Translations under genes and position numbers: made by a program
The notes under the pieces: generated by a model
Databases searched by the model: none
The model's input: only the letters and a program-made list of their open reading frames with translations
Told to the model about the DNA's origin: nothing
In this document: positions 2,195 through 62,926 of the stretch, in pieces
How the letters are laid out: every line of letters begins with the position of its first letter
How positions within the stretch are numbered: the stretch's first letter is position 1
NCBI GenBank assembly: GCA_019321725.1
Contig: CM033123.1
Coordinates: forward strand, 4,348,960-4,412,959
Length of the DNA stretch: 64,000 nucleotides
Origin: Paulownia fortunei
Lineage: Eukaryota > Streptophyta > Magnoliopsida > Lamiales > Paulowniaceae
Direction of reading: 5' to 3'

Positions 2195-2623
2195 TCAGAA
2201 TGGCGGTGGTGGCGACTTCCTTCTCCCCCACGGCTTCCACCACGGACTCGATGGCTTGCCCCCTGGTGATGGTGGCGGCTTCCTTCTCCCCCAGGGCTTC
2301 CACCACGGAGGCTTGCCCCCTGGTGATGGCGGCGGCTTCCTTCTTCCCCAGGGCTTCCACGATGGACGCGATGGCTTGCCCCCTGGTGGTGCTGGTGGCA
2401 AGTGCGGTACCCCAGGGCGTGGCGGTGGTGACTTGCTCCATGGCCAACGGAGGAGCTGCTGGCTCATTTGCTCCGCCACGAGCACTGTCTTCTCTTCATG
2501 CTCGGACTTGGGGGCTTCCTCATATAGATGAAAATCAGCCTGAGATGGATTAGTGAAAGCCATTGCTCCAAAGAGCAACATCAGAAAAAGTGTAGCCATG
2601 TTTTTTCCTTTGTGCCAAACCAT
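2195..2623 (-). CDS. Secreted Trp/Arg/Pro-rich repeat peptide precursor (type 1)
   Basis: A 142-residue protein of no family I can name. Residues 1-29 form a signal peptide (hydrophobic LFLMLLFGAMAF, likely cut after PSQA). Residues 30-58 are an acidic spacer. From residue 59 the protein is basic and proline-rich with three repeats of about 20 residues centred on WKPWGRRKPPPSPGGKP (W89-W92, W107-W111, W128-W132), preceded by a degenerate WPWSKSPPP at 60-68. The start is supported because MxWxK at residues 1-5 aligns with MGWLK/MGWDK in the genes at 11969 and 14046; Met9 is an alternative. A TATA box lies 43 bp upstream. Related to the gene at 9298 by its leader (GAMA(Y/F)T.PSQA). WRR/RRK clusters could be protease sites, and the composition resembles Trp/Pro-rich cationic antimicrobial peptides, but both points are inference. 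Confidence 0.8.
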   Translation of the reverse strand: MVWHKGKNMATLFLMLLFGAMAFTNPSQADFHLYEEAPKSEHEEKTVLVAEQMSQQLLRWPWSKSPPPRPGVPHLPPAPPGGKPSRPSWKPWGRRKPPPSPGGKPPWWKPWGRRKPPPSPGGKPSSPWWKPWGRRKSPPPPF

Positions 2624-2665
2624 AGTGGCTTGGGTGGATGGTAGAGATCATTCAGGGGGTTGGGG

Positions 2666-2672
2666 TTTTATA
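2666..2672 (-). promoter_or_regulatory. TATA box of the gene at 2195-2623
   Basis: TATAAAA on the minus strand, 43 bp before the first ATG. The same spacing (35 bp) is seen at 14518-14524 upstream of the related gene at 14046. Confidence 0.65.
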
Positions 2673-2829
2673 GTTAATTCTACAGATCCCTTGTGCAATT
2701 TCTTGTTGGAGTATGGAATTAATGAAATTTACCTGGTGGTGGAGGAGAGGGACTTGTGCAATGAAGAGATATGGTTTTGCATTGGGATGAAAATTGCATT
2801 AAATTAAGGTTGTCTGTATTAGCCAAGTA

Positions 2830-3375
2830 CACAGCCTACACTCTCAGATGCTGCCAGGTAGTGCTTGAATACATAGGATTTGTGTTAGTCATTGTAAAGA
2901 ATTAATTTCCAGCTAGATTATCTCTGGTAAAGAATCATCAAAGGTTGCTTTTTAAAGGCAAGTTTTATGTCCAAATACAAGATCTTGAAAGTAAAGAATG
3001 CAACTTGAGATTAAGAATTTTAGTGGGGTTGTGTGAATATGGATTAATTACATCAAGCTTCATGAAGTGATTAATATTATGTTAATTAATATGAGCACAC
3101 ATAAAGTGAGTGATGTAACCTAATTTGGTTGGATCTTAAACAATTAAAGTTGAACACAAAGAAAACGTTCACATGCTTTTTGGCGACATAAAATATTATT
3201 TACTAAAATGCTAATTAAAAATTAAAATAGGGTTTTGAGCCATTGAACCATTCGATATATACATAATGATATCATAAAGTCGAAAGGCTAATGTTATTAT
3301 GTACACATCTATTTTATAAATCTATTTTAGTAGTACAAAAGTCAATTGTATAAAACTAAGCTTGGAAAATTTGAG
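2830..3375. other. Upstream intergenic DNA, no gene seen
   Basis: AT-rich sequence with no coding signal, between the promoter region of the 2195 gene and a hAT-type element. Confidence 0.5.
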
Positions 3376-3383
3376 CTCTATAT

Positions 3384-3828
3384 CAATGTTTTCATAACCT
3401 GATCGGTGATTAAATCAATTTTGTTAGTAATTAGTGGTTCAACCGATCGGAACCGGTCGGACCGGCTCAATCGACGGTCAGACTGGTTTAATAAAAATTA
3501 ATTATATTTTCTTATTTTATTATGTAAAATAATAATAATATAATAAATTAATTGTTATGTAATACATTTTAAATGTAAAAATAAATAAACAACTACATAA
3601 AAAAATATATAATAAAATTCAAAATTCAAATAATCACATAAATATAACAAAATATCAAATTTAGACCTTTATAAAAATTAAAATCAAAAAATTAAAAAAA
3701 AAAATGAAAACCGGTCAAACTAGTTTTGACCGGTCAAACAATTTTTTAGGTCTAATTGTACGGACCAACCTTTGATTTTCATTTGGACCGATTGAACAGG
3801 CCGGTCTAGTTCGATTTTGAAAATATTG
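3384..3828. mobile_element. hAT-like MITE with 8-bp target duplication
   Basis: A 445-bp element with ends CAATGTTTTCATAACC (left) and CAATATTTTCAAAATC (reverse complement of right) and subterminal copies of ACCGGTC-like motifs. It is flanked by an exact 8-bp direct repeat CTCTATAT at 3376-3383 and 3829-3836. The 8-bp duplication fits the hAT superfamily. No protein is encoded. Confidence 0.7.
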
Positions 3829-3836
3829 CTCTATAT

Positions 3837-9297: not shown

Positions 9298-9714
9298 CTA
9301 GTAAGCAAGTGACGGTGGTGGCGGTGATCTTCTTCTCCAGGGCCACGGAGACTTTGGTTTTGGGAACCAGGAGTGGCGTGGTGGAGGAGCAGAGCCGTGG
9401 TGGTGCCCCGGTGACTGAGGTGGTGGTGATCTTCTTCTCCAGGGCCACGGCGATGTTGGTTTTGGGAACCAGGGGTGGCGTGGTGGAGGCGCAGAGTCGT
9501 GATGGTGCACCGATGATGGAGTTGGTGGTGGCGATCTTCTCCAGGGCACCGGCCACTTCGGCTTTGGGAACCGCCGGCCGTGAGGTGGTAGCGCCGAGCC
9601 AAGCTTGTGCTCAGGAAATTGATTTTCATCAAGAACAGTTAAAGAGTTTGCCTGAGATGGGGTGGTGTAAGCCATTGCTCCAAGGAGCAAAACTATCACT
9701 AGAAGTGCACCCAT
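9298..9714 (-). CDS. Secreted Trp/Arg/Pro/His-rich repeat peptide precursor (type 1)
   Basis: A 138-residue protein of no family I can name. Residues 1-22 are a signal peptide (LLVIVLLLGAMAY, likely cut after PSQA). Residues 23-46 are a spacer holding DENQFPEHK, a motif echoed as HENQSEK and DENRSEK in the genes at 11969 and 14046. The rest is a 34-residue repeat at 49-82, 83-116 and 117-138 (last one partial): FPKPKSPWPWRRRSPPP, then a HHH stretch, then GSAPPPRH.W. The protein ends SLAY. The upstream ATG used by the related genes is lost here (the aligned sequence reads TATTGGTTAAAA), so translation should begin at this Met, 62 bp below the TATA box. An inverted duplicate at 15793 is broken. 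Tribasic RRR sites may allow release of separate peptides (inference). Confidence 0.82.
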   Translation of the reverse strand: MGALLVIVLLLGAMAYTTPSQANSLTVLDENQFPEHKLGSALPPHGRRFPKPKWPVPWRRSPPPTPSSVHHHDSAPPPRHPWFPKPTSPWPWRRRSPPPQSPGHHHGSAPPPRHSWFPKPKSPWPWRRRSPPPPSLAY

Positions 9715-11968: not shown

Positions 11969-12035
11969 TTAAAGACCATTACCATCTTCCATCCTCAGAT
12001 TTTCATAACTGGATGGCCGGTGGATGTGCTTGTTT

Positions 12036-12066
<31 letters not shown>

Positions 12067-12427
12067 GGGGTTGGTCCCACCAGTGTACATGGCGTGGAGG
12101 ACGCGGTGGCCGTGTTGGCCTTCCAACACCATGACGGGAGCCTGGTGGCGGTGGCGGTGGTTTCTTCTTTGTCCAAGGAAAACATTCTGGCGACCATGGT
12201 TTCTTGTGGCAGCCGAGTCGGTGGAGCGGCGGGGTTTGGGCCCAAGACTTCCATGCCCAGAGCTCGCTATGCTTCATTTCTTCTGGCTGAAGGATAAGTC
12301 TTTTCTCAGATTGATTTTCATGGATTTTCTGAGAGTAAGCAAGGCATGATGAGATGATTATTGCCATCTCGCCAAGCAGCAGTATCACTAAAAATGTACT
12401 TATGGTGGGAGTTTTGAGCCAACCCAT
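11969..12427 (-). CDS. Secreted Pro-rich peptide precursor with C-x8-C loop (type 1 relative)
   Basis: A 152-residue protein. Residues 1-30 are a signal peptide (MGWLKTPT then FLVILLLGEMAIIISSCLA). A spacer with HENQSEKR follows. Cys73 and Cys82 enclose HKKPWSPE, then FPWTKKKPPPPPP. Residues 101-125 are basic and proline-rich and contain WWDQPPPPP. A microsatellite encodes PPPPPSLSLSLS (121-131), and the C-terminal part has PSSYEN. The gene at 14046 shares the MGW.KTPT start, the LLLGEM leader, .ENxSEK, CH.KPW...CFP and PSSYEN, so these are paralogues and this reading is real. Two conserved cysteines in an otherwise Cys-poor mature protein suggest a disulfide-closed loop (inference). I see no clear TATA box where its paralogue has one. 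Confidence 0.78.
12035..12070. repeat. Compound microsatellite (GA)n(G)n inside a coding region
   Basis: About 21 bp of GA repeat is followed by a run of about 15 G. On the coding (minus) strand it is read as PPPPP then SLSLSLS in the gene at 11969-12427. Length changes of non-multiples of three would shift the C-terminal reading frame. Confidence 0.9.
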
Positions 12428-14045: not shown

Positions 14046-14483
14046 TTAGACAACATGCATAAACATATTGTAGTTTTCATAACTTGATGGCTGGTGAGGA
14101 TGTGGAGGTCTTAGTTGACGGGGTGGCCGCTCCCACGGCCGTGCAAGACGACGGGGCGGACGTGCTGGCCGTTCAATGGCATGATCGCGGCCTGGTGGCG
14201 GCTTCATCTTTCTCCTAGGAAAACATCCCGTGAACCATGGCTTACCGTGGCAGCCCCATCGGCCCGGAGGGCGTGGAGGGATGTGGGTTGCCCCCCAGGA
14301 TTTTGCTCTCTCCGAAGCCGAAAGGCTGCCAATATCGTCTTCTGGATGTAGTCCTTTTTCAGATCGATTTTCATCTACTTTTTGGGAGTCGGCAAGACAT
14401 GGTGAGATGAGGAAAACCATCTCCCCAAGCAGTAGTAACATAACCAAAAACACTCGCATGGTTGGAGTTTTGTCCCAACCCAT
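14046..14483 (-). CDS. Secreted basic Pro-rich peptide precursor with C-x8-C loop (type 1 relative)
   Basis: A 145-residue protein, paralogue of the gene at 11969. The start at 14483 (MGWDKTPT) is preferred over an ATG 24 bp upstream because that one lies only 11 bp from the TATA box at 14518 and would be outside the transcript, and because MGW.KTPT is shared with the paralogue. Residues 1-31 are a signal peptide. A spacer with DENRSEKG and an acidic PEDD follows. Cys78 and Cys87 enclose HGKPWFTG, followed by FPRRKMKPPP. Residues 98-131 are Arg/Pro-rich (RPARPPRRLARPWERPPRQL). PSSYEN lies near the C-terminus. No named family fits; a secreted, possibly processed, peptide precursor is the likely role. 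Confidence 0.78.
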   Translation of the reverse strand: MGWDKTPTMRVFLVMLLLLGEMVFLISPCLADSQKVDENRSEKGLHPEDDIGSLSASERAKSWGATHIPPRPPGRWGCHGKPWFTGCFPRRKMKPPPGRDHAIERPARPPRRLARPWERPPRQLRPPHPHQPSSYENYNMFMHVV

Positions 14484-15792: not shown

Positions 15793-16209
15793 ATGGGTAC
15801 ACTTTTTATGATAGTTTTTCTCCTTGGAGCAATGGCTTACACCACCCAATCTTAGGCAAACTCTTTAATTGTTCCTGATGAAAATCAATTTCATGAGCAC
15901 AAGCTTGGCTCGGCGCTACCGCCTCACGGCCGGCGGTTCCCAAAGCCAAAGTGGCCGTTGCCCTGGAGAAGATCGCCACCACCTCCATCACCGGTGCACG
16001 ATCACGACTCTGCGCCTCCACCACGCCAATTCTGGTTCCCAAAGCCAAAGTCGCCGTGGCCCTGGACAAGAAGATCACCACCACCTCCTCCGTCACCAGT
16101 GCACCACCACGGCTCTGCCCCTCCACCACGCCACTCCTTGTTGCCAAAACCAAAGTCGCCGTGGCCCTGGAGAAGAAGATCACCACCACCACCGTCACTT
16201 GCTTACTAG
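15793..16209 (+). pseudogene. Broken inverted copy of the Trp/Arg/Pro-rich precursor gene
   Basis: The frame aligns codon for codon with the intact gene at 9298-9714 over 139 codons, starting MGTLFMIVFLLGAMAY. Codon 21 is TAG (15853-15855) where the intact copy has CAG (Gln21), so translation stops within the signal peptide. The rest of the frame stays open to the SLAY terminus and keeps the three FPKPK..PWPW repeats, which implies recent inactivation. The TATA box is also changed. Initiation downstream of the stop would give a product lacking a signal peptide, so I call this a pseudogene unless read-through or an assembly error applies. Confidence 0.85.
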
Positions 16210-39721: not shown

Positions 39722-39774
39722 AGTATTATCAGAGCCATTTGGTTGAGGCTAATATTGAGATTTGAGTTATTAGG

Positions 39775-41030: not shown

Positions 41031-41256
41031 GACAGGTGTGAAGGAAATTCTGTTGGGTGAGAGAATGGATCGAGGTTATCCCTCTCGGCAGTCAACTAGT
41101 GGTGTTGATTGGGCTGTATGTGTGCTTTAACCGACTTAAATAAGGTGAAGTTAGAACCTTACTGATTCAGTATATGCTATGAATTCATTGAAGGTCAATT
41201 GTATTTTTGGTATTCTGGTTTACGGACAAAAGTATTTTGTGGTGGAGATGGAGAAT

Positions 41257-41773: not shown

Positions 41774-41963
41774 TTGATGTAGTATAAGCAGCATTTTCAT
41801 AATATAGTACTCCATTTCATACATGCGAGAAGTGCATCAGGTTAACTCGCAAGCTAATTACCACTACAACAACACTTGTAAGTGATAATTAAGCAAAACA
41901 ATAGATTATTTATTTAAAAAAGATGACCAGTTCACAACCGAGTTTATTTAGTATTTCGGCTTT

Positions 41964-42452: not shown

Positions 42453-42540
42453 CTTCAGATATTGTTTTTTTGGTGATTGTATGTAAAATCCTGGCTGAAG
42501 GTGGCCTTCTTATAATGATTTTGGACCAATGGAAAAGTAA

Positions 42541-42546
42541 CACGTG
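42541..42546. promoter_or_regulatory. G-box upstream of the type-5 copy in unit 2
   Basis: CACGTG at the same distance from the ATG and in the same context (GTAACACGTGTTAGC) as at 31874. A TATAAGAA box lies at 42507-42515. Confidence 0.55.
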
Positions 42547-42689
42547 TTAGCCAAATGATTTAAACCAAAAAATTGAAAAACTTAAAGATACACCATTCTG
42601 ATAAATATTATACTGGAGTCCAATATCATCTTCTAATGCAACCATTTACACTTGTAGAATCCTGCAAATTTCCAGTAAAATCCCAATAA

Positions 42690-47435: not shown

Positions 47436-47439
47436 TTGG

Positions 47440-48990
47440 TTTTATTCATATTCCAATAAAAAACTTGTGGGATCAAATCTAAAAGATAGTAATTCATTCA
47501 AAAATTAGCCAAATTTTCCCGATGTAGAGGGAATTATTTTTTTTTAATTATATATTCTGAAAAATATAAAGAAGAATGTGGTGTATATTTTGTTTTATTT
47601 TGGAAATGTGTTTTAAAGTTGGATCTTAAAAGCCCATCTAGTTTATGTTCCTCATGCAAAATATAAATGTAAGTGATTCTTGATAAGAGGAAATTCTTGA
47701 ACATAATTTCCATTTGACACTTGGATTAGGACTTTGTATTTTTGCTATATTAGGATGCAATTGCAGTCTATAATTCTGCATAGTTCCTTGTGCATCTCAT
47801 GACCCCCATGATTACCTTAGCCCAACAAAAAAAAGTTAGTTCAAGAAGCCTAATAGGAATTTTCAAATTATTTCTTAGGGTTATAGTTGTTTGTTTCGAA
47901 ATCCCATCTCTACTAATGGAGGTGGTTGAAATTCTTGATCAATGGAGGAACATCATTTTTGTTTACTAGGATACCAAAGTGCATAATTGACTCACTCCAT
48001 CATCTATAGTATTTTTGCCTTGGTTAATTTCTCTCTCATTTATTAAAATTATGGAATCTTGAATTCCAAATTGATCAAATATTGGTCAATACATTTTTCT
48101 TTTTTCAAATGCATCAAAATTTCTAATCAAATGGTTATGCATTAATTAGTAGAATACTCTTTGTAACATTACTTCTCATTCTCAATTACAACGAAACAAA
48201 TCAATTCAAAGTTGGCCAAAATTCAAAAAGTATAACACATATTCATCACAAAATTGAATAACTTCAAACTGTAATCAAATATGAAATTCACAATTTCATG
48301 AATTGGCGCCTTAAGCATTGACTAAAGAAAATTAGTTTATTGTGAAATAAATCATACTTAAAATGCAAGAATAAATCATCGGTTCTTCAATAATTTCAGT
48401 ACAATTAAGCAATAATTTTAGGAAATTAAAAGGAAAAACCAAAACCCAATAATTAAGGAAGACCCAAGTAGTTGAACTCTTGATTTCTTCATGTAATCTT
48501 CAATTCTCTTGTTGTTTCCTCCTCTCTTAGCCTTAAACTTGTGTTTTCTCTGTTCTTTACTCTGAAAGATCGTCCCGAATATATATAGAATGTATGTACG
48601 GACTCTTTTTTATATCTCATTCTCTTTCCTCATTGGTTGTATATAATAAATAAATAAAAAAATACATTAACAAAAATTGCGAACGAACAAAAAATTTCTC
48701 AATCTCTGTAAAGATATTAAGTTTTGCGAGTTCATAGTCATAGACATTAATTAATTCCAATTCTTAATTAATGCAACTTTTGTGATACTATTAAAAAGAC
48801 AAACATCAGTATGCAAGTGCATGGTACAGATGCAGTATAAGCAACATTCACATAATATAGTACTCCATTTCATACATGCGAGAAGTACATCAGGTTAACT
48901 CGCAAGCTAATTACCACTACAGCAACACTTGTAAGTGATAATTAAGCAGAACATAGATTATTTATTCAAAAAAAAAAAGACCAGTTCACA
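47440..48990 (+). repeat. Left part of repeat unit 3
   Basis: 47440-47560 matches 29620-29740 (TATTCATATTCCAATAAAAAACTTG). 47620-48370 matches 63220-64000 very closely, for example CATCTCATGACCCCCATGATTACC. 48170-48660 matches 30120-30550. The type-4 gene expected further left was lost or replaced by the copia insertion. No gene is seen here. Confidence 0.7.
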
Positions 48991-49001
48991 ACCGAGTTTA
49001 T

Positions 49002-49433
49002 TTAGTATTTCGGCTTTTTTGGTGGTGTTGGGGGCTCGAACAATTCAACGTCGTCCGGGATTGCTGATGGTGCGGGGCTGGGCTTGCTAAAGCCATGGGA
49101 TGAGTGTCGGCTGCTTAGGATTGTTGATGGTGCAGTGATGGGGTCGCCAACGCCATGGGATGAGTGTCGGCTGCTTAGGATTGTTGATGGTGCAGTGATG
49201 GGGTCGCCAACGCCATGGGATGAGTGCCGGCTGCTTAGGAGTGTTGATGGTGCAGTGATGGGGTCGCCAACGCCATGGGATGTGTGTAGGCTGTTTTGAA
49301 TTGGGTTCAACATATGCCTGCTTCGGTCGAGGCCCTGATTCTTTTTCTCATTATCTTCGTTAGCAAGAGAGGAGGTGGCGATCAGAAGCACAACGGCAAA
49401 GGGCAAAATTAGACACTGTAATTTGGCTGACAT
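49002..49433 (-). CDS. Secreted SSHGV-repeat peptide precursor (type 5), intact copy
   Basis: A 143-residue protein and the best-preserved member. Residues 1-24 are a signal peptide (MSAKLQCLILPFAVVLLIATSSLA). The spacer is NEDNEKKNQGLDRSRH. Repeats of exactly 20 residues start at 50, 70, 90 and 110: three nearly identical copies of SSHGVGDPITAPST(I/L)LSSR and a final variant SSHGFSKPSPAPSAIPDD. The C-terminal tail is ELFEPPTPPKKPKY. The 60-bp DNA repeats are almost identical, so they were recently expanded or homogenised. The start at 49433 is chosen because the in-frame ATG at 49532 lies upstream of the G-box (49520) and TATA region. Function is unknown; a secreted multi-peptide precursor is inferred. 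Confidence 0.85.
   Translation of the reverse strand: MSAKLQCLILPFAVVLLIATSSLANEDNEKKNQGLDRSRHMLNPIQNSLHTSHGVGDPITAPSTLLSSRHSSHGVGDPITAPSTILSSRHSSHGVGDPITAPSTILSSRHSSHGFSKPSPAPSAIPDDVELFEPPTPPKKPKY
49085..49296. repeat. 60-bp tandem repeat within the type-5 gene
   Basis: About 3.5 units, each with GCCATGGGATGAGTG..GGCTG and GATGGTGCAGTGATGGG. Because 60 is a multiple of 3, all frames repeat, and the antisense strand also stays open across it. The same array is present at 31370-31640, 42045-42312 and 57290-57580 with different unit numbers. Confidence 0.9.
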
Positions 49434-49519
49434 CTTCAGATGTTGTTTTTTTGGTGATTGCATGAAATCCAGGCTGAAAGTGGGCTTCTTATTATGATTT
49501 TGGACCAATGGAAAAGTAA

Positions 49520-49525
49520 CACGTG
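49520..49525. promoter_or_regulatory. G-box upstream of the type-5 gene in unit 3
   Basis: CACGTG in GTAACACGTGTTAGC with CCAAT adjacent. The TATA region here reads CATAATAAGAAG, where the other copies read CATTATAA(G/A)AAG, so the box is altered in the only fully intact copy. Confidence 0.55.
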
Positions 49526-49899
49526 TTAGCAAAATGATTTAAACCCAAAAATTGAAAAACTTAAAAATACACCATCCTGATAAATATTATACTAGAGTCC
49601 AATATCATCTTCTAATGCAACCATTTACAGTTGTAGAATCCTGCAAATTTCCAGTAATTTACCATATCCATGGAAACAGGCTGTGCCTTTGGCAGACACA
49701 ATTATTGAATTTGTTTACACATAACCACCATCTTGCCTCTAGTATCTTATGCAGGGATTTCTTTTTCTTAAACTGGGTTGCCGCTAAAAATGCAGCAGTG
49801 GTCCATTTTACCCAAGAAATGAAACTTATAAGCCGTGATATGATTCATCATTCATGGTACTGAATAGAGTTTTAGAGTACTAGGATAAGTGAATAAGTA

Positions 49900-52800
49900 A
49901 TTACTTTTGTTTGATATCCCACCAGTTAACATGTTCCTAAATCAGCAAGAAATATTCAAAATATAATAATTACAATCCGTATTTAAAAATTGTTAAAAAT
50001 GAGAAAAAGAAAGAGAGATTTTTCTGCATTTCTAATTGAAGACACAATATTATGCTGCAGATTTATGGTTTAAAGGCCTGATTTTCCCACTACCGTGTGA
50101 ATCGGCAATTTAGTGCTTTTCCAGCTTTTTCTTCACTTATGGCCTGCGATGCCAGTAGCATGGCGCTCTTGTAATTGATAGCAGGCATTTGCTTGTAAAA
50201 ACATGAGTTAATTGTAGCATGTTTTGGGCTCCTGTCCACTCAACCTGTGCCTTCAAGAGTCCAACATACAGCAAAATTTAACAGATCAAGGTCTCCACCA
50301 TTTAATATATTCTGATGAGCTCAAGGAACAAACTGCAGATTTGGAAGTGCAACTTGGACAGTGTAATCTTAGTTCTACTTAGTACCAAGAACGATAAAAT
50401 GCGAAGAAATAGGATTTCTTCAAAAATATACAATCTCTTTAATTCCTTTAAATTTTTTAAGCCCAATTGATTTGCCTATATTTAAGTATAATTTTTTTTA
50501 TTTTTCTTCTTCCGTAAGTTCTTTTCTCTAGAAATATTATACATTGGCAATTTCAAAATGAAATTATAGCAATTATAGCACGTCTGATAATTATAGAATA
50601 ATAAATGGCATATGATACTCTAATTGTGCCCAAAAATATATTTTTTGTTAAAAAAACAAAACCAATTGGGTATCCCCTTTTTTATTCCTTACTTAACTGA
50701 TATGCCGTCAAATTTTATATTTTTTTCTAATTGCGAGTAAAAGAATACGTGTATTGTATAAAAGACTAATACCAATAATAAAAAAATAAATTAATAAACA
50801 TAACAAAAAAAAATATTTGATTTTATAACTTGATTTTTATTATTGTTTTATTTTGGTTTTCAATTCCAAGCATTTTTTTCAATACAACTCTAATTATATT
50901 TTAATTAATTATTCTTCTATTATTAATGATATGGTTGCATAATAGAAGTAATAAAAATTATACGATCCCGCCAAATTACAAGAGTGAAAATAATTTTTTG
51001 CTTGAATGTAAGTGTAAACTTCAAGCAATTGAAATTTATGTGGATTGAAGGGATTTGTTTTTTTAAGTATTTGTTAAATAATGTGGATAATTTTGAAAGA
51101 ATGCGGGATCACTTATGAATGTATTTATCTTAAAAAATTAAATCTTATTCAATATGCTTAATAAGAGTTATTTCTTGAACTCAAAAGAAATAAAACAACT
51201 ATAAAATAGGCTCACTCTTAACGTAAATAAATTTGTTATATATTTTCATTTACATATGTTTACTACTCATAAATCATCTTATATAAAATAGTTTTTATTA
51301 TAGCTTTCAAAATCATTAGTGTAGATTAAAATTATTGCAGTAGTTGACGCCTAATTAAGTTAGATTATTTTGTTTTTAAAAGATTGTATCAAAAATAAAT
51401 CAATTTAGTTTAATCAGTCTTGAAAATATTTCATAATCAATTTGAAAATTCATTTTTTTCTTGTATGATCAATTTATAAATGCAAAATAAATCAAAACAT
51501 GACGAAGTCCAATATTTGTGTCACTTATTCAAATGTGATTTAGTGAAAATCTGCATTTGTATTTTCTCTTTTTGTAGTTTTAATTTTTTTAATAATAACG
51601 TGTCAAAATTATTTTTTTTAGTTACTTTTTCTAATATAACCTAATAATTCATTATTTAAAAGAGATAATTAAAATAAATTATTGAAATTAATTTAAAAAT
51701 AATATAAACTAAATATACACTAAAATAAATTTATTCTCTAACGTACTAATTAGTACATAAAAATTACTCGCATTGAAAACAATTGTAAACAAAATCAAAA
51801 TAACTTTATATATAGTCATTCTATGATGAAATGATTTATAACAAATGAATGAAATACAACTTTATAAGTTCAAATTCAAACAATCTACATAATGTAATGA
51901 TATAATCTATATTTATTCACATGTACCATTCAAATAAATACAAAATTAAAATGAATTCAAGAGTATTAGCAAACAAAAATTGATACCAAGTATGCACATC
52001 AAATTAACCACTAAAAAGGGCAAGTGATTAAAAGATTAGTTTCAAATGAAAAGACATTACGAAATTGATACAATAGCCTAAATATAACTTTTAAATTATG
52101 TGTGTTATAAATGGAATGCATTATATATTATCACATCAAGTTACTTCACATGCTATGCATTTAAAAATGTATTTTTTAACTATATCTGTACTGATACTTA
52201 ATTTTCTCAATCAAAGTAATTTTCACAATTAATCAAGTGAAAAGTTAAAAAATCAATGATAAAAGTGTCACATTTAATTAAAAACTCAAGTAAACTAAAT
52301 ATTTATTTATCATAACAAGCATATAATGTTGATTTTATTCATAATTACTACTTGTTAATTTAAATATATAAAGTCTAATTTTGTCCATCCACTTACCTAT
52401 TTCTCTTGTCTACATCTCTTTCTCTCCGTCACTCCTTCAATAGTGATATATATATATATTTAGAAAATCATAAATACAACAAACATATATAGTATGAATA
52501 ATATATTAAAATATCACTTCTTTTATTAACAACATGTACATATTTTTATCATAAGCACTAATTTATAATACTTTTTAAACACAATAACTTTTATAAGTAA
52601 AAGTAAATGTCAAATTGATGGTTGAATTTTTATACATGTTTAATATAATATTCGAATTTTATCATAAATGTTAAATTGATAGAATGAATTCTATATAAAT
52701 TCTATTTTGAATTTCTTGTAGCGGCATTCTTTTAACCTATTCACTTCTAGTTCTTCTTTCAATCTTGCATATTATATTTGACTTGAATAAATTAAATGCT

Positions 52801-52960
52801 AAGATTTAATCCTTAATTTTGAAACTTATATTAAATATATACTCGGAAATTAAATATGAAGTTTATGATGCAACAATTTTTAAGTCTATCTATTGTTTTA
52901 AAAATTTATTGTGGATTTTTCATCTTATTGATGAGGCTTAATTAAAACAAAGCACAGAAT
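49900..52960. other. AT-rich tail of repeat unit 3, no gene seen
   Basis: Aligns in many places with 32400-37300 of unit 1 but is shorter through deletions. No coding signal was found. Confidence 0.55.
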
Positions 52961-52962
52961 AC

Positions 52963-55200
52963 TAAATGATCACTCCAGTGCGGCACGATGCCGCTGATGC
53001 CAAGTCAGCTCCTACGTCGCTAACTATGCCCTGCTTGGTCCTCCAGCACAATGGAGGTTCCATAGTGCGTTATGAGCACTGGGCTAAGAACGGTAGCTCT
53101 CTTAGGGAGACCCAACGTAATTGCTTAACTGATTGTGCATGGTAGCTTCACTCTGAAGGAGTTGTTGCAAGGTGGCTAGCTTCGCTATGCCTACTCTCTG
53201 CCGATGAAGACGATGAGTGCATTTTATGTCCACTAATTGAGTACTATTTGTTTAACTTTTTGATTAGTTTTTGAGTATTTTTGTTAATTTTTATGCATTT
53301 AGTTTGAAATATTGTAGGAACTACCAAAATGAGGAGAAAATGGAAATAAACATAAAACTTGGTTTAAATTTGATTAATCCGCCTTTTGGTGTTATTAAGG
53401 ACAGTGTTCGTATTTCAATCATAACTTTTTGGTCTAATATCCTTTTGACTTGTTTCTTGAATTATTGGAAAGCCAAGAGATTTATCTATAACATTTATGT
53501 TTACCATAAAATTCAGTTATTTTTATTTCAATAAGAAAAATTGGGTTAAATAGTTTACACTTGACCGAACATTTCAGGTATGACATATCTTGGTATTTCA
53601 GGCATAAATCTTTGCACATATTTCATATTGAGTTGATTCAAGTTCCTATTGAAATCCAATACATAGACTACAATTTATATGAGACAACAAAAACCAATTT
53701 AGTCTAGAAATAGGTGAAAAGGTAGTTGAAAGAGGCTACAAGTACAGTAAAAACTCATCTTAAACAGCAAGAGCAGTGCCTAAGCGCTGCCATGTAGCGC
53801 TTAGGCGCTACAATCACTGTCCAGGACAGAATGTGCAGTGCCTAGGCACTGTAAATTGGCACCTAGGCGCTGCCAACCAGGCAAGTAAGGGCAAATTGGT
53901 ATTTTATGCCCTCTTTAGAGCATCTCCCATCAAGTTTAAGTATTCCAAAAGCCTCTATTTCAGATTTGTAGAGAGGGAAAGAAGAAAAAATAAGCCAAGA
54001 AAGAAGAAGGAAGAAGAAGAAAAAATTCTTCCAAGAGTTGAGAAGAAGACATCTACAAGGGGAAGAAACTCATCCTACTTCCAAGTTTTATTTCATTTTC
54101 CTATTTCTCTCATTAATTATGTTTATGAATATTGTTAGGTTGTCTTTCATTTTTATCATTATGAACTAATTTATTTTTCTAGGGTTGTGATGTAAAAAAT
54201 TATGATATTTTGAACATTTGTATCAATTCAATTCTCAATTTATGTTCAAGTTAGTTTTCTACATTGTTTTTAATGCTTTCAATTACTTAGCCACTAATTG
54301 AATAATTTGCTAATCATATTGACCCGAGAGGTGATATATGTGTCAAGTTTTATGTGTAGAAAATTATAAATTACATGTGAGATAGGAATATACTTACATG
54401 GTTTGTGTAGTGTTGTTGGAGATCCATATAACCTAATGAATTGTTGATTATTGTATTCATATAGAAATATAGTGAGTTAGCAATTGATGATATTTTCATT
54501 AGACTTTGGGAAAGGCTAGTGGATAATTTAAGGATTCTCGACTATCACTTGAGAATTAAATTGAGATTGATGAGATGAATTATTCAATTCGGATTAATTA
54601 TGGTACAATCATAACCTTAAGCTTTTGAGTTTTTGAATTTCATCATTAGTTAGTGTAGGTAGACTTAATTTGTAATCATAATCACCCATTTTCGTTTATT
54701 CAAATAAAATTAGAGTTAACATAATTTCAGTACTTAATAATTCAACAATCCTCGTGGGAACGATAAATGATTCACCACTTTATTACTTGTATATGATAAC
54801 GTGCACTTGCGTTCACGAAATTTCGCAACAGAAGACATTAGAGACATCATACTTTATATGATTTAAAGGCACGATCTCAAAGTCTGTCTATTGGTATTGC
54901 GGAATTGGAGTCCTTGAAAGATCGAGTTTCTACCGTGATACAATCCCATGAGGAGAAGGTGGTGAAGGCCAAACAACGACTATTCCAGCAAATTCTGGTT
55001 TTTTAGCAGAGGCTAGCCAAAAAGTTTTCGAGGCTAGAGCTTCACTAGAAGGGAGAAGGGCTTTACATCAAATGGCGATTGATGATCTTCACATTGCTAG
55101 AGCTGAACAAATGAGTCTGAATACCAAGGCTAACATTGCTGAGACGGCATCCGAGAGAGCTGATCTTGAGAAGGCTCGAGAGGCTTGGAGGGAATAGGGA
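52963..55200 (+). mobile_element. Retroelement-derived insert, probably Ty3-gypsy leader plus a coiled-coil fragment
   Basis: Interrupts the repeat-unit sequence (left break near AAAGCACAGAATACTAAATG; right resumption near 55205). It includes a GC-richer leader with palindromic AGCGCTTAGGCGCT / CCTAGGCGCT motifs (53775-53890). The phrase CCTCGTGGGAACGATAAATGATTC ... GTGCACTTGCG (54750-54815) is like the leader of plant gypsy elements. A piece at 54880-55195 reads, in two frames, as a Glu/Lys/Ala-rich coiled coil (SLKDRVSTVIQSHEEKVVKAK and later MSLNTKANIAETASERADLEK). No reverse transcriptase is present. The class assignment is tentative. Confidence 0.5.
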
Positions 55201-55204
55201 CATA

Positions 55205-56270
55205 ACGGGCTTCATTTTTTCTTTTTCTTTTAACTCTTTTTTTCAAACCTAAATTTTGAAAATTTATAATTAAAATCTTATATTAGGAATCTAATTTCAA
55301 ATTTATTGCTTCAATCTTGGAATATATTCATTGTATTAATTAACTATGAATATTTATAGTTTTTATGAATATGATTGTTTTTTATGTTTCAATTTTTTAT
55401 TTATATTATTACAATGATATGATTTGTTTTAATCAATTGAATGTTACTATGAAAAATTAAATAGGTAATTGAAACTAAATTAGAATTTAAAAGTGTATAC
55501 TCATCATTATTAGAAGTTCTAGATAAAAATTTGATGGAGTCCTCATTATATACACGAATCTAATATTTATAAAAAAAAACTTTGATACCAATTAGAGTAT
55601 CATAAAAACTGAATTATCTCAACGGATGTATATCATATTGAGATAAATGTCAAGACTTGGGTACTAATGTAATTTTTGTTCAAACTTTTGGTAAAATTTT
55701 AGTTACTTTAAGATGTTATCATTAATTCTTTTTAATTTAGTATCAAAGTTCTTATCATTAATCTTAGTATTTTTTTTTACTGTAAATTGATCTTTGTTTA
55801 CAATCTAAAATTATAATCGGAATAAGATAATTGATATGAAAATTAGAAAATATTCATAAAATTGCAGTAATGCTAAATGATCAATTTTAAACGATCATAA
55901 CTCTCACATACCAAGTCCTCATTATGCTCATTACATATGGTTAGAAAGTTTTCCTCGTCTACTTTTGTATGAAACTAATTTTATTTAAAAAGTCAAAACA
56001 TTCAAAATCTTATGGCAGATTGTTTGAGATCAAAAACTAAAACTTGGTGTTATACACAAATTATACCACTTAAAATTTGATAAAATTCAATCATGCTCTC
56101 CTTTTTGGGTATTTAGTCCTTAATTAATTAGGATAGAGTTGTTTTAGGTTTTCATTTTTTAATTTTTTTATATTTAGAATATAGTATGCATATCAAAAAC
56201 TCATAAAGATTTTTTTATATTAACGATTTTTTTTTTAAATTTTTGAGTTATTCATACTTAATTAGCCAGC
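55205..56270. other. Continuation of the unit 3 tail, no gene seen
   Basis: Resumes homology with 37360-38190 of unit 1 (for example ATGATATGATTTGTTTTAATCAATTGAATG and AATTTGATGGAGTCC..). No coding signal. Confidence 0.55.
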
Positions 56271-56274
56271 TGAT

Positions 56275-56433
56275 ATGGATTTTCAAATGTTATTACTTGA
56301 GGCTGCTTCTCTTGCCACGGTATTTCTGTATGCTCAAGTTCATGTAGTCTCTGGGGATTGGCGGCAAGTGTGGAAGTTGTGACAACCATGCACCAGGCTG
56401 AGGAACAATATTTAACAAGTTTTTTGTTGGCAT
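56275..56433 (-). pseudogene. Broken copy of the SLSYN-repeat gene (type 4), unit 4
   Basis: Starts MPTKNLLN and keeps nucleotide similarity to the leader, but indels shift the frame within the signal peptide, and everything after the equivalent of TGCTCAA..ACCGTGGCAAGAG is lost. Only about 160 bp remain. Confidence 0.75.
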
Positions 56434-56689
56434 CTTTAAAACCATATATGGTGCAAAAATAAGAGATATTAGTAGTTAACTTTATTCTGATTTTTTATCT
56501 GTATCCTCAAGAATTTTTTAAGTCTTGTACGCAAGAAGCTTATAAAACAGAGGTATGAATTGCATTCTGCTAACAGAGTTCCATAAAATCGATCTGGTAG
56601 TTCCATTTTTGTGATATAATAAAAGTTTTCCAGTTGGATGAATAATAAAATTTGTTTATTGAAGATTTTTTTTCTTTGTTCATGCAAGT

Positions 56690-57180
56690 CCAGGACATCT
56701 TCCGAAATGTCTTCCAGGCAGGTGGAATTGCAGGTATTAATGGATCAACATAATAGACACAACTCATAAATTGGAGCATAGAGACCTATAGTCGAAGGAA
56801 ACCTTCACAATGGGGAAATCCCTCTGAATTGGACTAGATCTGACTCTGTTGCAATCCTAGGATGGTTTGATTTGAGTCTGCATTGTTTTCTCAAACCCAG
56901 AAGACATTTGATTGTTCACTGAAAGAAAAATTTCTCAATCTGTCTTCATAGTCATGGACATTAAAAATTTCCAATTCTTAATTAATGTAACTTTTGTGAT
57001 ATTAATAAAAGACAAACATCAGTATGCATTGTATAAGCAGCATTCTCATAATATAATACTCCAGTTCATACATGATACAAGTACATAAGGTTAACTCGCA
57101 AGCTAATTACCACTACAGCAACACTTGTAAGTGGTAAGCAGAACATAGATTGTTTATTCAAAAAATTAACCAGTTCACAA
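56690..57180 (+). repeat. Conserved flank of repeat unit 4
   Basis: 56690-56900 matches 38745-38960 (GTCCAGGACATCTTCC, GGCAGGTGGAATTGCAGGTATTAATG). 56940-57180 matches the region just left of the other type-5 genes (GCATTCTCATAATAT, GCTAATTACCACTAC). No gene seen. Confidence 0.65.
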
Positions 57181-57207
57181 CCTAAGTTTATTTAATATTT
57201 GGGCTAT

Positions 57208-57721
57208 TTATATCGGACGCCTTGGAGGTGTTGGGGGCTCGAACAATTCAACGCCCGTCCGGAATTGCTGATGGTGCGTGTCTGGCCTCGCTAAAGCCAT
57301 GGGATGAGTGAAGTCTGTTTAGGATTTTTGGTTGTGGGGTGGGGGGGGGGGGGGGGGGGTGAGCTCGCTAACACCATGGGGTGATGTGGGGCACACACAT
57401 GTGAGCCTCGTGTATAATTCTTTGTGCATGGTCTTTAACACCATCGGATGAGTGTCGGCTACTTAGGATTGTCGATGTTGCAGTGATGGGCTCGCCAACG
57501 CCATGGGATGAGTGTAGGCTGCTTAGGATTGTTGATGGTGCAGTTATGGGCTCGCCAACACCATGGGATGTGTGTAGGCTGTTTTGATTTGGCTTCAACA
57601 TATGCCTGTTTCGGTCGAGACCCTGATTCTTTTTCTCATTATCTTCATTAGCAAGAGAGGAGGTGGCGATCAGGAGCACAACTGCAAAGGGCAAAATTAG
57701 ACAGTGTAATTTGGCTGACAT
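57208..57721 (-). pseudogene. Disrupted SSHGV-repeat precursor gene (type 5), unit 4
   Basis: Starts at 57721 with MSAKLHCLILPFAVVLLIATSSLA and reads about two and a half normal repeats (TSHGVGEPITAPS, SSHGVGEPITATS). At the third, SSDGVKDH, the frame enters foreign sequence of about 55 bp (57378-57432) and ends in HITPWC at 57368 (118 residues). Beyond it lie a run of about 18 G (57342-57359) and an unread remnant of the last repeat and tail down to TAA at 57208. The G-box is also mutated. A truncated precursor with two intact repeats might still be made. Confidence 0.8.
57342..57359. repeat. Poly-G run inside the disrupted type-5 gene
   Basis: About 18 consecutive G following GTTGTGGGGT. 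Absent from the other copies, where the position reads GGTGGCGGGGTGAGC or GATGGAGGGGTGAG. Likely slippage in a short G run; the exact length may be uncertain in any assembly. Confidence 0.85.
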
Positions 57722-57810
57722 CTTCAGATGTTCCTTTTTTGGGTGACTGCGTGTAAAATCCCGGCTGAAAGTGGCCTTCTTATAATGATTTTGGACCAAT
57801 GGAAAAGTAA

Positions 57811-57816
57811 CACTTG
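57811..57816. promoter_or_regulatory. Mutated G-box of the unit 4 type-5 copy
   Basis: CACTTG where the three other copies have CACGTG, in otherwise conserved promoter sequence. Confidence 0.6.
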
Positions 57817-58149
57817 TTAACAAATGATTTAAAACAAAAAATTGAAAAACTTAAAGATACACCATTCTGATAAAATATTATACTAGAATCCAATATCATC
57901 TTCTAATTCAACCATTTACACTTGTAGAATCCTGCAAATTTCCAGTATTTTACCATATCCATGGAAACAGGCTGTGCCTTTGGCAGACACAATTATTGAA
58001 TTTGTTCACACATAACCATCATCTTGCCTCCCGTATCTTGTGCAGGGATTTCTTTTTCTTAAACTGGTTTGCTGCTAAAAATGCAGTAGTGGTCCAATTT
58101 ACAGAAAAAAATTAAATTTTCAACCCGTGACATGATTCATGGTGCTGAA

Positions 58150-60235
58150 TATTAAGGATAGAGACAAATTAATTCTGTGTCACTGATGGCCTAATACTGA
58201 ATTTTGAACCATTAAGAAGCTAGAGTTTTAGAGTACTAGTATAAGCTATAAGCACGATAGCATGCATGTGCTTTTCTGTTTATCTGGGGATGGAATCAGG
58301 GTTTCTAAGGAGGAATATCTACTAAAGTTGAATTCATTTAACACGCAAATATGATTTAAAATTTAAGGATATACCGGCCACTTGAGGGGAGCGGCTGCCC
58401 CTTCGTGAAGAAGATTAGAAAACCCAACAGTTAACGTATTCATAAATCAGCTAGAAATATTCAAAAATATATTGATCATTATCCTTATTTTCGCAATATT
58501 GTGTGAATTGGGAATTTTGTGCTTTTCCAGCTTTGTCTTCACTGCTAACCGGTGGCCTTTGATGCCAGTGAGTTAAAAATGGTGGCAACTATTTTTGTAA
58601 TCATTAACAATGTTCTTCACTGCTAACCTATGGCATGATATTTTGGCAAGTGGAAAACCAGTAAACTCAATGATCCAGACTGATAAATCTAAGTGGATTT
58701 ATCATTAAACATTGATGAGTAAGGATCATAACCATGAAATGGTAAAGCTTGCCCAGGAAAAGATGAAACTGGGTTGAATAACGTAAATTTTCACACCTCA
58801 ATAAGATTAAGCAAATATCAAACGAAGTTGGCAATTAAAGACCAGTGTCACACTAAAAAAGATGAATGTATTTTATAAGTGAAGACCCCTTGTCAAGCTA
58901 AACAATAAATGATTTAATGGTGACATTTCTGTTCTGAGTACACGACAATAAAAATTTATTACGTTGTCATAATGAGAGAAAAATTGTTAGTAGAAAAATA
59001 TTTACAGGCACCGATTCAGGCCATTGGACTCACTTTTAGCTATAGGAAGACTCCAACCCAATTAATAGCAGCAACCTAGCAATCAAGAGAAGCTCTTACT
59101 AATCCGACAGGTTGTACAGCGGTTTGCTTCTTCCAGTTTTTGATGATTTCCCTTTTGTTGTCTATGCTTCTTGCTCTCTTAGCAAAGGGTAAAATTATGG
59201 GCTTCTCGGCTATGGAAGTTAAAGATGCTACCCTTATGTTCATTTACAGGCATAGCTATGCTGGTTTATGTATTAGCCATTACCAGCAAGATAGAACATT
59301 TACAAATTGAATTATATACACTGAGCAGGACAGCAGTTTCCAGAGCATTTACAATATTCACCGGCTATGTTTTTAGTTGTCAACCACAAAAAGCATGTCC
59401 AATAAGGCAATGACAACAATCACATTCAGAAAATACAAGGAAAACTTGTCAAAAGTGTCAGCAATAATCTCAAAAAATTAGTTCATGCAAGAGGGGTAAA
59501 GTTTCAGCAATAATCCCAATTCTGCTGCACTTACATCGTGTGCTAGTTAGGTTCTCAAGTCCAGGACAGCTTCCGAAATGGCTCCCAGGTAGGTGGAATA
59601 GCAGGTATTAATGGATCAATATGATAGACCCGACTCACAAATTGGAGCATAGTGTCGGATAATTGACGGAAACCTTTCTCAATCCCTCTCAATTGGACTA
59701 GCCATGCAATCCGAGGAAGGTGTTTCATGGTGGAAGTGGAGCTACACTACTATTATAGCATGTATTAAAATTCAAGTCAAGATTGAGAATTTTAATGTTT
59801 TATTTTGAATTATGTACCAAAAATAATATTGAATTACTTAAAGGTAAAGTAATTGTTAGTGGGAGAAAAAGAGGTCATATAGATATTTTGTAGCAATTTT
59901 AGTTAAGTGCAGATTTTTTAACCTAATTTTTCTCATTGAAATTAAAAGAACTGGATTTAGTGATAAATATAGAAGTTATTAATCTATTTCTTAGATTTTC
60001 AATGGCTCAATAATCAAGTTAAAATGATATTAAAGCAAAGAGTTATGATTGAAATACAAACACTGCCCTTAATAACAGTATAAAGCGAATTATTCTAAAT
60101 TTTAACCAAGTTTTATATTTCTTTTCATTTTCTTCTCATTTTGCCATTACCTCCAAAATTTTAAATTAAATTATAAAAAGTAACATAAACATTCAAAAAC
60201 TAATCAAAAAATTAAACAAATGCTACTCAATTAAT
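58150..60235. other. Intergenic part of unit 4, no gene seen
   Basis: 58200-58560 follows the pattern of 32210-32650. 59515-59720 is another copy of the block found at 38700-38940. A plus-strand frame of 62 codons at 59225 has no features that support a gene. Confidence 0.5.
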
Positions 60236-60763
60236 AGTTATAAAATCCACTCATCAAGGCCAAATGCCATATTTTTCTTCTTCAATATAATATATATAAG
60301 CCTTTATAGCTCAAATGTCCATACCTCAAATGCAAAAGGTTATAATCTTCATCTATTGTACTCTGAAGTACGACTTTCTCAGTTAATGACAAATAAAGAG
60401 GAAAAACTTTATTTGAACTCATCTTAATTTTAACAATTGTGAGATTTTTCTAATTATCAATAATAACACACTGGTCATTATTGAATTCCACTTTGTAATC
60501 TTTCTCCAGTAGTTGGTCGATGCTCAATAAATTCTGAGTTAAGTCTAGTACATAAAAAACATCCTTGATAATATTGATTTTGCCTTCTTTCGTTTGGACT
60601 GCAATTGCTCATTTTCCTGTAATTTTGTGCGCTTTGTCATCTCCAAGTTTTACGTCTGATGAATATAATTCATCGAGCTTCACGAATATTTTCTTATTTC
60701 CACACATGTGATTGCTGCAACCATTATCCACGTACCAAATATTATCAATTTGTTGTTGAGAGT

Positions 60764-61773
60764 TCAAGCAGAAATAAAATACTTATTGTCCTCATTTCTT
60801 TCTGTGAAGTTGACCTCTTTTGTATCTCCTTCATCTTCGTACCAACAATCTCCTTGGGAATGATTTGTATTTTTGCATTTATTCCGGTAATTTTTTTGTT
60901 TTATGATCGTTCCTCCTACATATTCAGCAATATAAATCTCAATTTTGATTAAACTTTCTCGGTCTAGAATTGTCTTTTCTTCCTTGTCCTCGTGTTTGGA
61001 AGTTTTGATATCTGCCATCACCTCTGCCTCATGCACCTCGCTAAATTGAATTATTCTTTTGGCCATCTTTCTGATTTTTCTATTCTGAAATATTAACCTT
61101 TTCTTGAAAAGATTGCTCCAAACTTTGACTTGAAAATCTACTCATTCTTTTTTCATTGGTTTCTAGTGATCCCACAAGTTCATCCAAAGATAATTTTGAC
61201 AAATCTTTAGATTCTTCAATTGCAGCGACTATATGCTCGAACTTTGCTAGCAAATTTCGTAGCACTTTTTCAATGATATTTCAGTCTTCAACAATATCAC
61301 CATATCATCTTATTTGATTTACAACTATAGAAACTCTATAAAAAAATTCTTGCACACTTTTGCTATCTTTCATAGCCAAATTATCAAAATCTCACCATAA
61401 ATTTTGCAATTTGATAGAGATGACTTTTTCAAATCCTCCAAATTGTTTTTTCAGAATTTGTCATGCATCTTTTAATGTTTTAACACCTGTAATACGTGGA
61501 AGAATGGATCGACTTACACCTTAGTGCATAAAGTACAAGGCTCTTGCATCTTTCATCTTGTGCACTTTATGTTTTTTTTTTTGTTGCAGCTAGCGCGGCT
61601 TCCTCCTCCGGAGTATATGTATTATACCCCTTTTTAACAATATCCCAAAGTTCATGGGTCACGAATAATGTGCGCATCAAGATATTCCATAACTCGTAAT
61701 TTTGACCAACAAATATAGGAACACCGTGTTGGGAATAGGTGAAACCAAGTTCACTACTGGTGGTTGAAGTCAT
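60764..61773 (-). pseudogene. Degenerate copia gag
   Basis: Begins MTSTTSSELGFTYSQHGVPI then FVGQNYELWNILMRTLF, a copia-type gag start (YELW). A frameshift follows TPEEEAALAATKKK. Later pieces include MKDSKSVQEFFYRVSIVVNQ and VLRNLLAKFEHIVAAIEESK. Stops occur throughout. Confidence 0.8.
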
Positions 61774-61807
61774 TTTTGTGTATAGGAGGGGTAATCAGGC
61801 CAAGAGT

Positions 61808-61820
61808 GGCTCTGATACCA
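61808..61820 (-). other. Primer-binding site (tRNA-Met type)
   Basis: TGGTATCAGAGCC on the minus strand, four bases after the LTR terminus CCCAACA. This is the usual plant copia primer site. Confidence 0.85.
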
Positions 61821-61824
61821 CAAA

Positions 61825-62362
61825 TGTTGGGTGTAAGGGTTTAAATATATAAAAAAAAAAATATGAGAAAGGTAAAAATAAATGGAAGACTAATATTACA
61901 AATGTAATAAAAATATGTTCACTATTTGGCATTACAAATAGCCTAATATTTGGAAGGCTAACATGAGAGAGGTAAAAGTAAATGGAAGACTAATATTTGG
62001 TATTGCAAATAGAAATATGCTCACTATTTGAGAGGTAATTCTATTTTGCACTCTAAAATAGTCTTGCCTGGCTTTTTTTTTTTTTTTTTTACTTCCTTGA
62101 TTTTTTCCTCGGATTGCTTGCTTGAAATATCCAACAGCATTGCCTATTTATATGCCTCAATCATCCTAGCATGTAGATTAAAATAATTACCAAAGTTTAT
62201 CACTAAGAAAGTGGGAGATGTAGTGGGTGCATTAGCACACCATAATCTTTCATAATTGTACCATAATGCATCAATTTCTATGGCCGGTTGGACCTCATTC
62301 ATTACGCTCCATTAGTTGTGGTTTAGTGTTTCAACCACTAATTACAAATTATTATTTTAACA
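61825..62362 (-). repeat. 5' LTR of the minus-strand copia element
   Basis: 538 bp, TGTTAAAATAATAATTTG at its start and CCCTTACACCCAACA at its end (minus-strand sense). Unit sequence resumes at about 62363 (CAAGAAGTGTTCAAAACAATAGG). Confidence 0.75.
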
Positions 62363-62557
62363 CAAGAAGTGTTCAAAACAATAGGCCGGGCTCTTTGACC
62401 ACACAGGCACAAGTGATTTCTCATAACAAAGAAAATTAAAGAAAACAAAAAAGAAATCCATAGAGATGAAGCACTTCAGGATGATTTTATTTCAACAAGG
62501 CATTTAATTTTATAACAGCTCAGAACAAGTACATAATAAGTGTCTGAGTCAGAGTTG

Positions 62558-62926
62558 CTAGTGACCGGAGTGGTCATGGTTAAGGGTCAACCTCTTCAGC
62601 TTCAAACCTGGTAGATGTATTTCAAGCATTGGCTCCGGCACTTCTGGCAGTGGGGGCCTGGGTTCAGCGGCAGTGTTGTAGGATAATGGTTCCTGCAACG
62701 GGGGCATTGGTTCAACGGCTGTGCTGTCTGATAATGATCCGTGCACTCATTCCGAATCCAACGTCAAGACATTGAGGGACTGTGCAGTACCTATTGTTAG
62801 AGGCTGCTTCTCTTGCCATGGCAATTTTGTATGCTCAATTTCATGTGGTCTCTGGTGATCGGCAAGTGTGAAAGTTGTGACAACCACCAGGCTGATGAAC
62901 AATATTAACAAGTCTTTTGTTGGCAT
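62558..62926 (-). pseudogene. SLSYN-repeat gene (type 4) with a deletion and premature stop, unit 5
   Basis: A 123-codon frame starting MPTKDLLILFISLVVVTTFTLA. A deletion of about 50 bp after SLNVLT removes the equivalent of SYELPNQHDISPVALPL, and TGA at codon 60 (62747-62749) ends translation. Beyond it the frame is open and keeps HGSLSDSTAVEPMPPLQ, EPLSYNTAAEPRPPLPE and the NHDHSGH end. The first SLSY is changed to SLSD. Compared with the copy at 28714, decay is recent. Confidence 0.82.

Follow-up and report, generated by a model that had tools for sequence, protein, structure and literature searches.

What kind of locus consists almost entirely of short genes for low-complexity proteins with predicted signal peptides, and what might its products do? 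The question is raised by a 64,000-nucleotide stretch of Paulownia fortunei contig CM033123.1 (positions 4,348,960 to 4,412,959; hereafter the window, numbered from its first letter), in which the open reading frame (ORF) list and self-comparison revealed 17 short genes or remnants between 2195 and 62926 that combine a predicted signal peptide with a low-complexity mature part. Given its Copia retrotransposon pieces and the plant relatives of one gene (F1), we take the window to be nuclear plant DNA. Our best explanation, held with moderate confidence, is that small genes undergoing duplication and decay are clustered here, and that their products are secreted multi-peptide precursors that are likely cut into short peptides and probably serve in defence.

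Sorting by sequence yielded six types, A to F, in which nine genes were fully open (A1-A4, B2, E1, F1, D1 and C3), seven were clearly decayed (A5, B1, C2, C4, D2, D3 and D4), and C1 was a separate case, having an open frame with a frameshifted tail. The array claimed by the original prediction therefore stands, whereas its count of eight open and seven decayed genes does not. The members, in order along the window, are:

A1: 2195..2623, minus strand; open, 142 amino acids (aa); predicted signal peptide, acidic spacer and W/R/P-rich repeats (63-nt period, 3.2 copies).
A2: 9298..9714, minus strand; open, 138 aa; repeats of 102 nt.
A3: 11969..12427, minus strand; open, 152 aa, with two Cys; Tandem Repeats Finder (TRF) finds no array.
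A4: 14046..14483, minus strand; open, 145 aa, two of them Cys; paralogous to A3.
A5: 15793..16206, plus strand, opposite to A2; decayed copy of A2 with 84% protein identity and one stop within the signal peptide.
B1: 19132..19934, plus strand; decayed copy of B2, frameshifted and interrupted by about 353 additional nt.
B2: 23629..24072, plus strand; open, 147 aa; diverged repeats rich in H/K/P.
E1: 25125..25490, minus strand; open, 121 aa; single copy; P/K/R-rich.
F1: 27229..27711, minus strand; open, 160 aa; conserved in Lamiales.
D1: 28714..29127, minus strand; open, 137 aa; acidic; SLSYNTA(V/A)EPMPPLQE present twice.
C1: 31398..31775, minus strand; open for 125 aa, including four repeats of 20 aa; the tail (to about 31294) lies in another frame owing to a frameshift.
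D2: 38252..38467, minus strand; decayed.
C2: 41970..42452, minus strand; decayed, with a stop after two repeats.
C3: 49002..49463, minus strand; open; 143 aa counted from the conserved ATG at 49433; 60-nt repeats.
D3: 56261..56389, minus strand; decayed remnant.
C4: 57214..57721, minus strand; decayed by a frameshift and extra sequence.
D4: 62561..62926, minus strand; decayed copy of D1 with one stop.

E1 and F1 occur once each, tblastn with either returning only the self-match, and nucleotide profiles found no further A, B, C or D copies in the window at E 0.01. Two weak, low-complexity tblastn matches (8881-9030, E 0.001; 31358-31540, E 0.006) were not taken as copies. The interruption of B1 (19369-19722) consists of about 353 bases that B2 lacks; a short ACA-like repeat marks the joint, no clear terminal inverted repeat is seen, and the segment is possibly a small transposon insertion.

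Low complexity was general, as had been claimed for the mature regions, whereas repetition was not the rule: TRF placed tandem arrays only over A1, A2, A5, D1 and C1-C4, which include just 4 of the 9 fully open genes. The repeats of B2 are diverged and were recognised by eye, and none were visible in A3, A4 or E1. Several antisense or shifted frames across the same arrays are likewise open, so an open frame over repeats is weak evidence by itself. One such frame, 131 aa long and antisense to the C2 repeats (41923-42318, plus strand), is expected from their 60-base period and might mislead gene callers.

Duplication shaped much of this array. A2-A5 and B1-B2 are duplications that include their flanks, and the right half of the window is organised as follows:

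D-C module: 28556..64000, no strand assigned; tandemly duplicated (self-comparison and profile search).

Its cores lie at about 28.5-33.4, 38.2-42.7, 47.4-50.8, 56.3-58.6 and 62.4-64.0 kb, making four to five copies, around which more diverged flanks match too; the core at 47.4-50.8 kb holds C3, and no D copy was found there. Because the last copy runs past the right end of the window, more members probably lie beyond. Intact genes standing beside broken sisters are the mark of birth-and-death evolution. Within the module's spacer, 47619-48384 and 63235-64000 (766 bases) are 95% identical, more than in any other long self-match listed. A G-box, CACGTG, lies 92-104 bases before the ATG of C1, C2 and C3 (31874-31879, 42541-42546 and 49520-49525); these are three of the four CACGTG sites in the window, none occurs in the 400 bases upstream of C4, and they prove nothing on regulation because C1, C2 and C3 are duplicates.

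Predicted signal peptides set these genes apart from other frames. With a signal-peptide scoring matrix applied to the 42 ORFs that reach 70 aa, family members supplied 11 of the 12 top scorers (shortened C2 and C4 frames counted), the only non-family ORF among them being a frame antisense to E1. Eight ORFs in the window scored 7 or more, versus four summed over 20 shuffled windows; as C1-C4 arose by duplication, the eight do not count as independent. Such signal peptides would bring the precursors into the secretory pathway.

Constraint at the protein level was found in A1/A2 and A3/A4 and was weak or absent in C and D. For A1-A2 the ratio of nonsynonymous to synonymous rates (dN/dS) was 0.23 with dS saturated at >2, synonymous and nonsynonymous changes differed strongly (Fisher p 5e-9), and third codon positions changed most (p 0.0004); for A3-A4 dN/dS was 0.45 (Fisher p 9e-5). 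C3-C4 gave a Fisher p of 0.02 and a codon-position p of 0.002. Nonsynonymous change was in excess in the mature part over the leader in two of five pairs tested, C1-C3 (p 0.02) and C1-C4 (p 0.006). Comparing signal peptide with remainder in ten pairs, the signal peptide was more alike at p <0.05 in A3-A4 and D1-D4, three C pairs fell at p 0.050-0.060, and the other five gave no such result.

These data bear on the possibility that most copies are non-functional repeat ORFs open by chance, with only F1 and some type A members being true genes. Seven or eight of the 17 are broken, C and D show weak constraint or none, and the repeats also carry open frames on the antisense strand; set against this are the signal-peptide enrichment, the constraint in A1/A2 and A3/A4, and the persistence of C3 and D1 intact next to broken sisters. 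We regard this account as very unlikely.

The most informative single member is F1. Protein database searches covered C3, D1 and F1 by a method that reaches only relatives sharing exact five-residue words. F1 had seven relatives, all with an E of 4e-32 or lower, with 83-99% coverage and 50-60% identity; the six that are named come from Sesamum (three), Orobanche (two) and Buddleja (one), all Lamiales and representing three families. Among the candidates that shared words with C3 (11) and with D1 (68), none was a relative at E 1, and a search of the Protein Data Bank by sequence with F1 gave no match. As judged from sequence, F1 is a genuine conserved gene.

Ordinary secreted proteins are expected to have a signal peptide that is less conserved than the rest. 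F1 showed the opposite: all eight F1-type proteins begin with MSTT in the alignment, and the signal peptide is the best-conserved part, with a mean pairwise identity of 0.81 versus 0.41-0.61 elsewhere. Invariant residues occupied 12 of 22 signal-peptide positions versus 14 of 138 elsewhere (p 6e-6), and with one sequence per genus (five sequences) the counts were 15 of 22 versus 18 of 138.

Conservation over three Lamiales families is also what a developmental ligand might show, and secreted fast-evolving clusters arise in reproduction too. The genes could encode species- or organ-specific factors that serve reproduction or development, as in pollen, seed or gland, and evolve fast for reasons other than defence. 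No organ is indicated by the sequence, and C3 and D1 found no relatives; we judge this reading quite unlikely.

Leaders link F1 to other types. A permutation test shuffling signal peptide and spacer apart was applied to 38 cross-type pairs (p uncorrected), and five reached p <=0.003: A1-B2, A1-F1, A2-F1, B2-F1 and E1-F1, the last with z 5.3. The B2-F1 leaders are alike in nucleotides as well (79% over 34 nt; z 8.6 in the cross-type nucleotide test), and the same nucleotide test flagged A1-F1 in the 5' flank. A, B, F and E are thus plausibly of common ancestry, as far as their leaders can tell. A bolder and more tentative reading, which we consider possible at best, is that of a family spanning the order Lamiales that conserves its signal peptide while the mature region has been replaced repeatedly by new repeat peptides, F1 being the old, conserved member and A to E recent offshoots of it that diversified together at this one locus.

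Spacer charge, measured in types A, C and D with boundaries set by hand, separates the types further. A1-A4 have acidic spacers (net -5, -2, -1 and -4, respectively) followed by a cationic, Trp/Arg/Pro-rich part (+19, +16, +10 and +13), D1 has a spacer of -6, and C spacers are near zero net; the charged spacer that had been ascribed to the genes in general thus shows as a net charge in A1-A4 and D1 and not in C. An acidic spacer before a cationic part is the layout of many antimicrobial prepropeptides, and the full layout appears, on these charges, in A1-A4 only. Because of it, type A would be antimicrobial-like and is the likely antimicrobial component; for B, C, D, E and F we would rather guess at signalling of a phytocytokine-like kind. 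In the mechanism we favour, prolines of the Pro-rich types would be hydroxylated, cleavage at basic or spacer sites would likely release short, often repeated peptides, and these would probably act in defence. The precursors are probably largely disordered. An AlphaFold2 single-sequence model of A3 had a mean predicted local distance difference test (pLDDT) score of 63, with one N-terminal helix and low confidence elsewhere.

No Pfam family or tested peptide-hormone motif was recognised in these proteins, in agreement with the original prediction's view of the repeat motifs. The ten proteins (the nine fully open ones and C1) had no Pfam match above cut-off, sub-cut-off matches appearing for three of ten at E 1, and none matched the simple patterns used for seven peptide-hormone families, such as the core motifs of CEP, PIP, IDA, CLE and PSK. 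Of the three proteins searched against the protein database, only F1 found relatives. A literature search with six repeat strings from the window found no paper; searches on lineage-specific secreted peptides in Lamiales (by title and the start of the abstract) and on hypervariable plant peptide clusters (by title) likewise turned up nothing on such a family among the papers listed.

Several results weigh against the explanation as a secreted, probably defensive peptide cluster, or against the unity of its members. The signal-peptide scores depend on the matrix used, and A3, the twelfth family ORF, scored 3.2 and ranked 16 of 42. On selection, the A3-A4 codon-position bias was not significant (p 0.13), A2-A5 and C1-C2 showed no significant constraint, the six C pairs ranged in dN/dS from 0.37 to 1.04, and D1-D4 had no codon-position bias at all (9/9/9); faster change of the mature part was not significant in C1-C2, C2-C3 or A3-A4 and was reversed in A1-A2 and A2-A5, where the mature part had the lower dN/dS. 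Because D1 is acidic and C3 neutral, a single antimicrobial mechanism cannot account for all types. Regarding leaders, no pair joining C or D to another type reached p <0.01 in the protein test, the closest being F1-D1 (0.010), E1-D1 (0.013) and F1-C1 (0.017); A3 and A4 have no strong cross-type link, the E1-F1 likeness is absent from the nucleotide test, and flanks of different types share no similarity at E 0.001. Nucleotide links of A1-C1 and A1-C3 in the signal-peptide stretch and of A4-C1 in the 5' flank were set aside, as the protein test disagrees. Types C and D, not convincingly linked, may or may not share the ancestor of A, B, F and E on this comparison. The earlier claim of kept leaders accordingly survives within each type and along A-B-F-E and lapses for C and D, and its fast-evolving peptide family narrows to tandemly duplicated, predicted secreted precursors with a conserved F1, without being one family with one kept leader.

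The strongest rival also draws on composition. Under it, the products are small Pro-rich cell-wall glycoproteins (short extensins, or proteins like the proline-rich proteins (PRPs) and arabinogalactan-proteins (AGPs)) that act whole in a structural or wall-binding role. In published rules for hydroxyproline-rich glycoproteins, as far as the consulted text of the source goes, a short extensin has at least two SPPP distributed along fewer than 200 aa, and AGPs and PRPs are recognised by composition or motif (PMC5073881). A1 and A2, both under 200 aa, contain two and three SPPP and so agree with the rule in number, a further point against the peptide explanation for these 2 of 10 proteins; types A, B and E are Pro-rich, and B2 has nine [AST]P dipeptides. 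Against the rival, none of the ten proteins attains 50% PAST or 45% PVKCYT or has two PPVx[KT] or KKPCPP motifs; YxY, PPVx[KT] and KKPCPP are absent from all ten and SPPP from eight; type A is rich in Trp and Arg, and Pro makes up just 9-13% of the mature part in C, D and F. Resemblance to structural wall proteins, which had been named in advance as evidence against a peptide family, is thus confined to the SPPP count of A1 and A2 and extends neither to the other eight proteins nor to composition. We consider the wall-protein reading unlikely.

Cyclic peptides offer another route to multi-peptide precursors. Multi-core precursors are common among plant ribosomally synthesised and post-translationally modified peptides (RiPPs), according to the consulted part of a source which also places a BURP gene near the jujube and coffee burpitide precursors (PMC11253845). 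SLSY is repeated in D1 and PWG in A1, and these might be cores cyclised by a separate enzyme, as in split burpitides, orbitides or the like. Yet no BURP domain appeared in the roughly 50 of 64 kb scanned with Pfam, the C repeats contain neither Tyr nor Trp save a single Tyr in C1, and one cyclase would not suit mature types so unlike each other. This leaves only a slight chance that the genes are RiPP precursors.

That same six-frame Pfam scan, outside which lie 1-2.6, 12.6-14.5, 24.5-32.5, 37.5-38 and 53-54 kb, bears out the claim that no other host gene is visible, as its only matches at or above cut-off were Copia pieces:

Copia fragments: 40074..45692, plus strand; gag, Pol_BBD and RVT_2, with an SH3-like match slightly under cut-off.
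Copia fragment: 60495..61643, minus strand; gag and Pol_BBD.

A DUF4219 match below threshold lies beside the second piece, and close to it is an inverted pair of about 355 bases at 80% identity (53212-53565 and 59902-60255). Diverged duplicates outside genes, at 75-77% identity (14730-15031 with 17408-17682; 18425-18786 with 21864-22226), indicate that the left half of the window was also built from old duplications. Rfam returned nothing at gathering threshold in the window.

What is new here is the combination of unlike repeat types in one locus and, across three Lamiales families, an F1 leader that is better preserved than the product behind it. Families of plant peptides are usually recognised by conservation of the mature peptide, with a leader that varies; F1 reverses this pattern, and at least one gene of the cluster, B2, shares the F1 leader while differing in mature sequence. 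If other members follow F1, searches by mature motif would miss such families, and unannotated defence or signalling peptides may be numerous among lamiids. The locus offers concrete candidates, with F1 first, then A1/A2 and C3.

Known systems resemble the locus in part. Small, putatively secreted and lineage-specific peptides are also encoded by the LEED..PEED family of Medicago, which by its description, on which the comparison rests, differs in being a legume family of 13 genes with acidic domains. Short extensins, PRPs and AGPs share SPPP with A1 and A2 and Pro-rich spacing with A, B and E, and differ in composition, their rules holding for 0 of 10 proteins. Hydroxyproline-rich systemins (HypSys) also come from secreted precursors, which at 146 and 165 aa are about as long as those here and yield several Pro-rich peptides of 15-20 aa; the consulted part of the source (PMC4621407) describes no clustering of them. 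In alignment to tobacco HypSys I, A1 outscored every one of 500 shuffles, which none of the other nine proteins did.

The nearest organisation is that of the Brassicaceae PROSCOOP genes, whose SCOOP peptides, ligands of MIK2, act in immunity (PMC6382344, PMC8448819). In the consulted portions of these sources, PROSCOOP genes form tandem clusters of small, Cys-free signal-peptide precursors with transposon vestiges and a family-restricted range, one cluster measuring 37 kb (PMC6382344), and some precursors carry two peptide copies, which we count as a further likeness. Small precursors with a signal peptide, here predicted, and (A3 and A4 apart) no Cys, a tandem cluster, transposon vestiges and a restricted phylogenetic range are shared with our locus. 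The differences lie in the genes themselves: PROSCOOPs, in those portions, have two to three exons, 72-117 aa and a conserved C-terminal SxS motif, whereas the genes here appear as single open frames of 121-160 aa (F1 aligning over 83-99% with database proteins) with unlike repeats, and two Cys in A3 and A4. A simple SxS..GxG pattern had no match in the ten proteins; SxS itself is missing from A2, C1 and C3, scattered in A1, A3, A4, B2, E1, F1 and D1, and in D1 falls once in each of two repeats. Filing the genes as PROSCOOP was rejected, the conserved SxS peptide being absent. Further afield, a pipid frog skin cluster of antimicrobial and hormone-like peptides, animal and unrelated, has 13 active genes that together yield up to 19 diverse peptides, according to the consulted part of its description (PMC3731216), and the tentative order-wide reading would make our locus a plant counterpart of cone-snail and frog-skin gene arsenals. 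Among all these systems, a PROSCOOP-like organisation appears to be the best fit, although the sequences differ, the genes read as single open frames and repeats are present.

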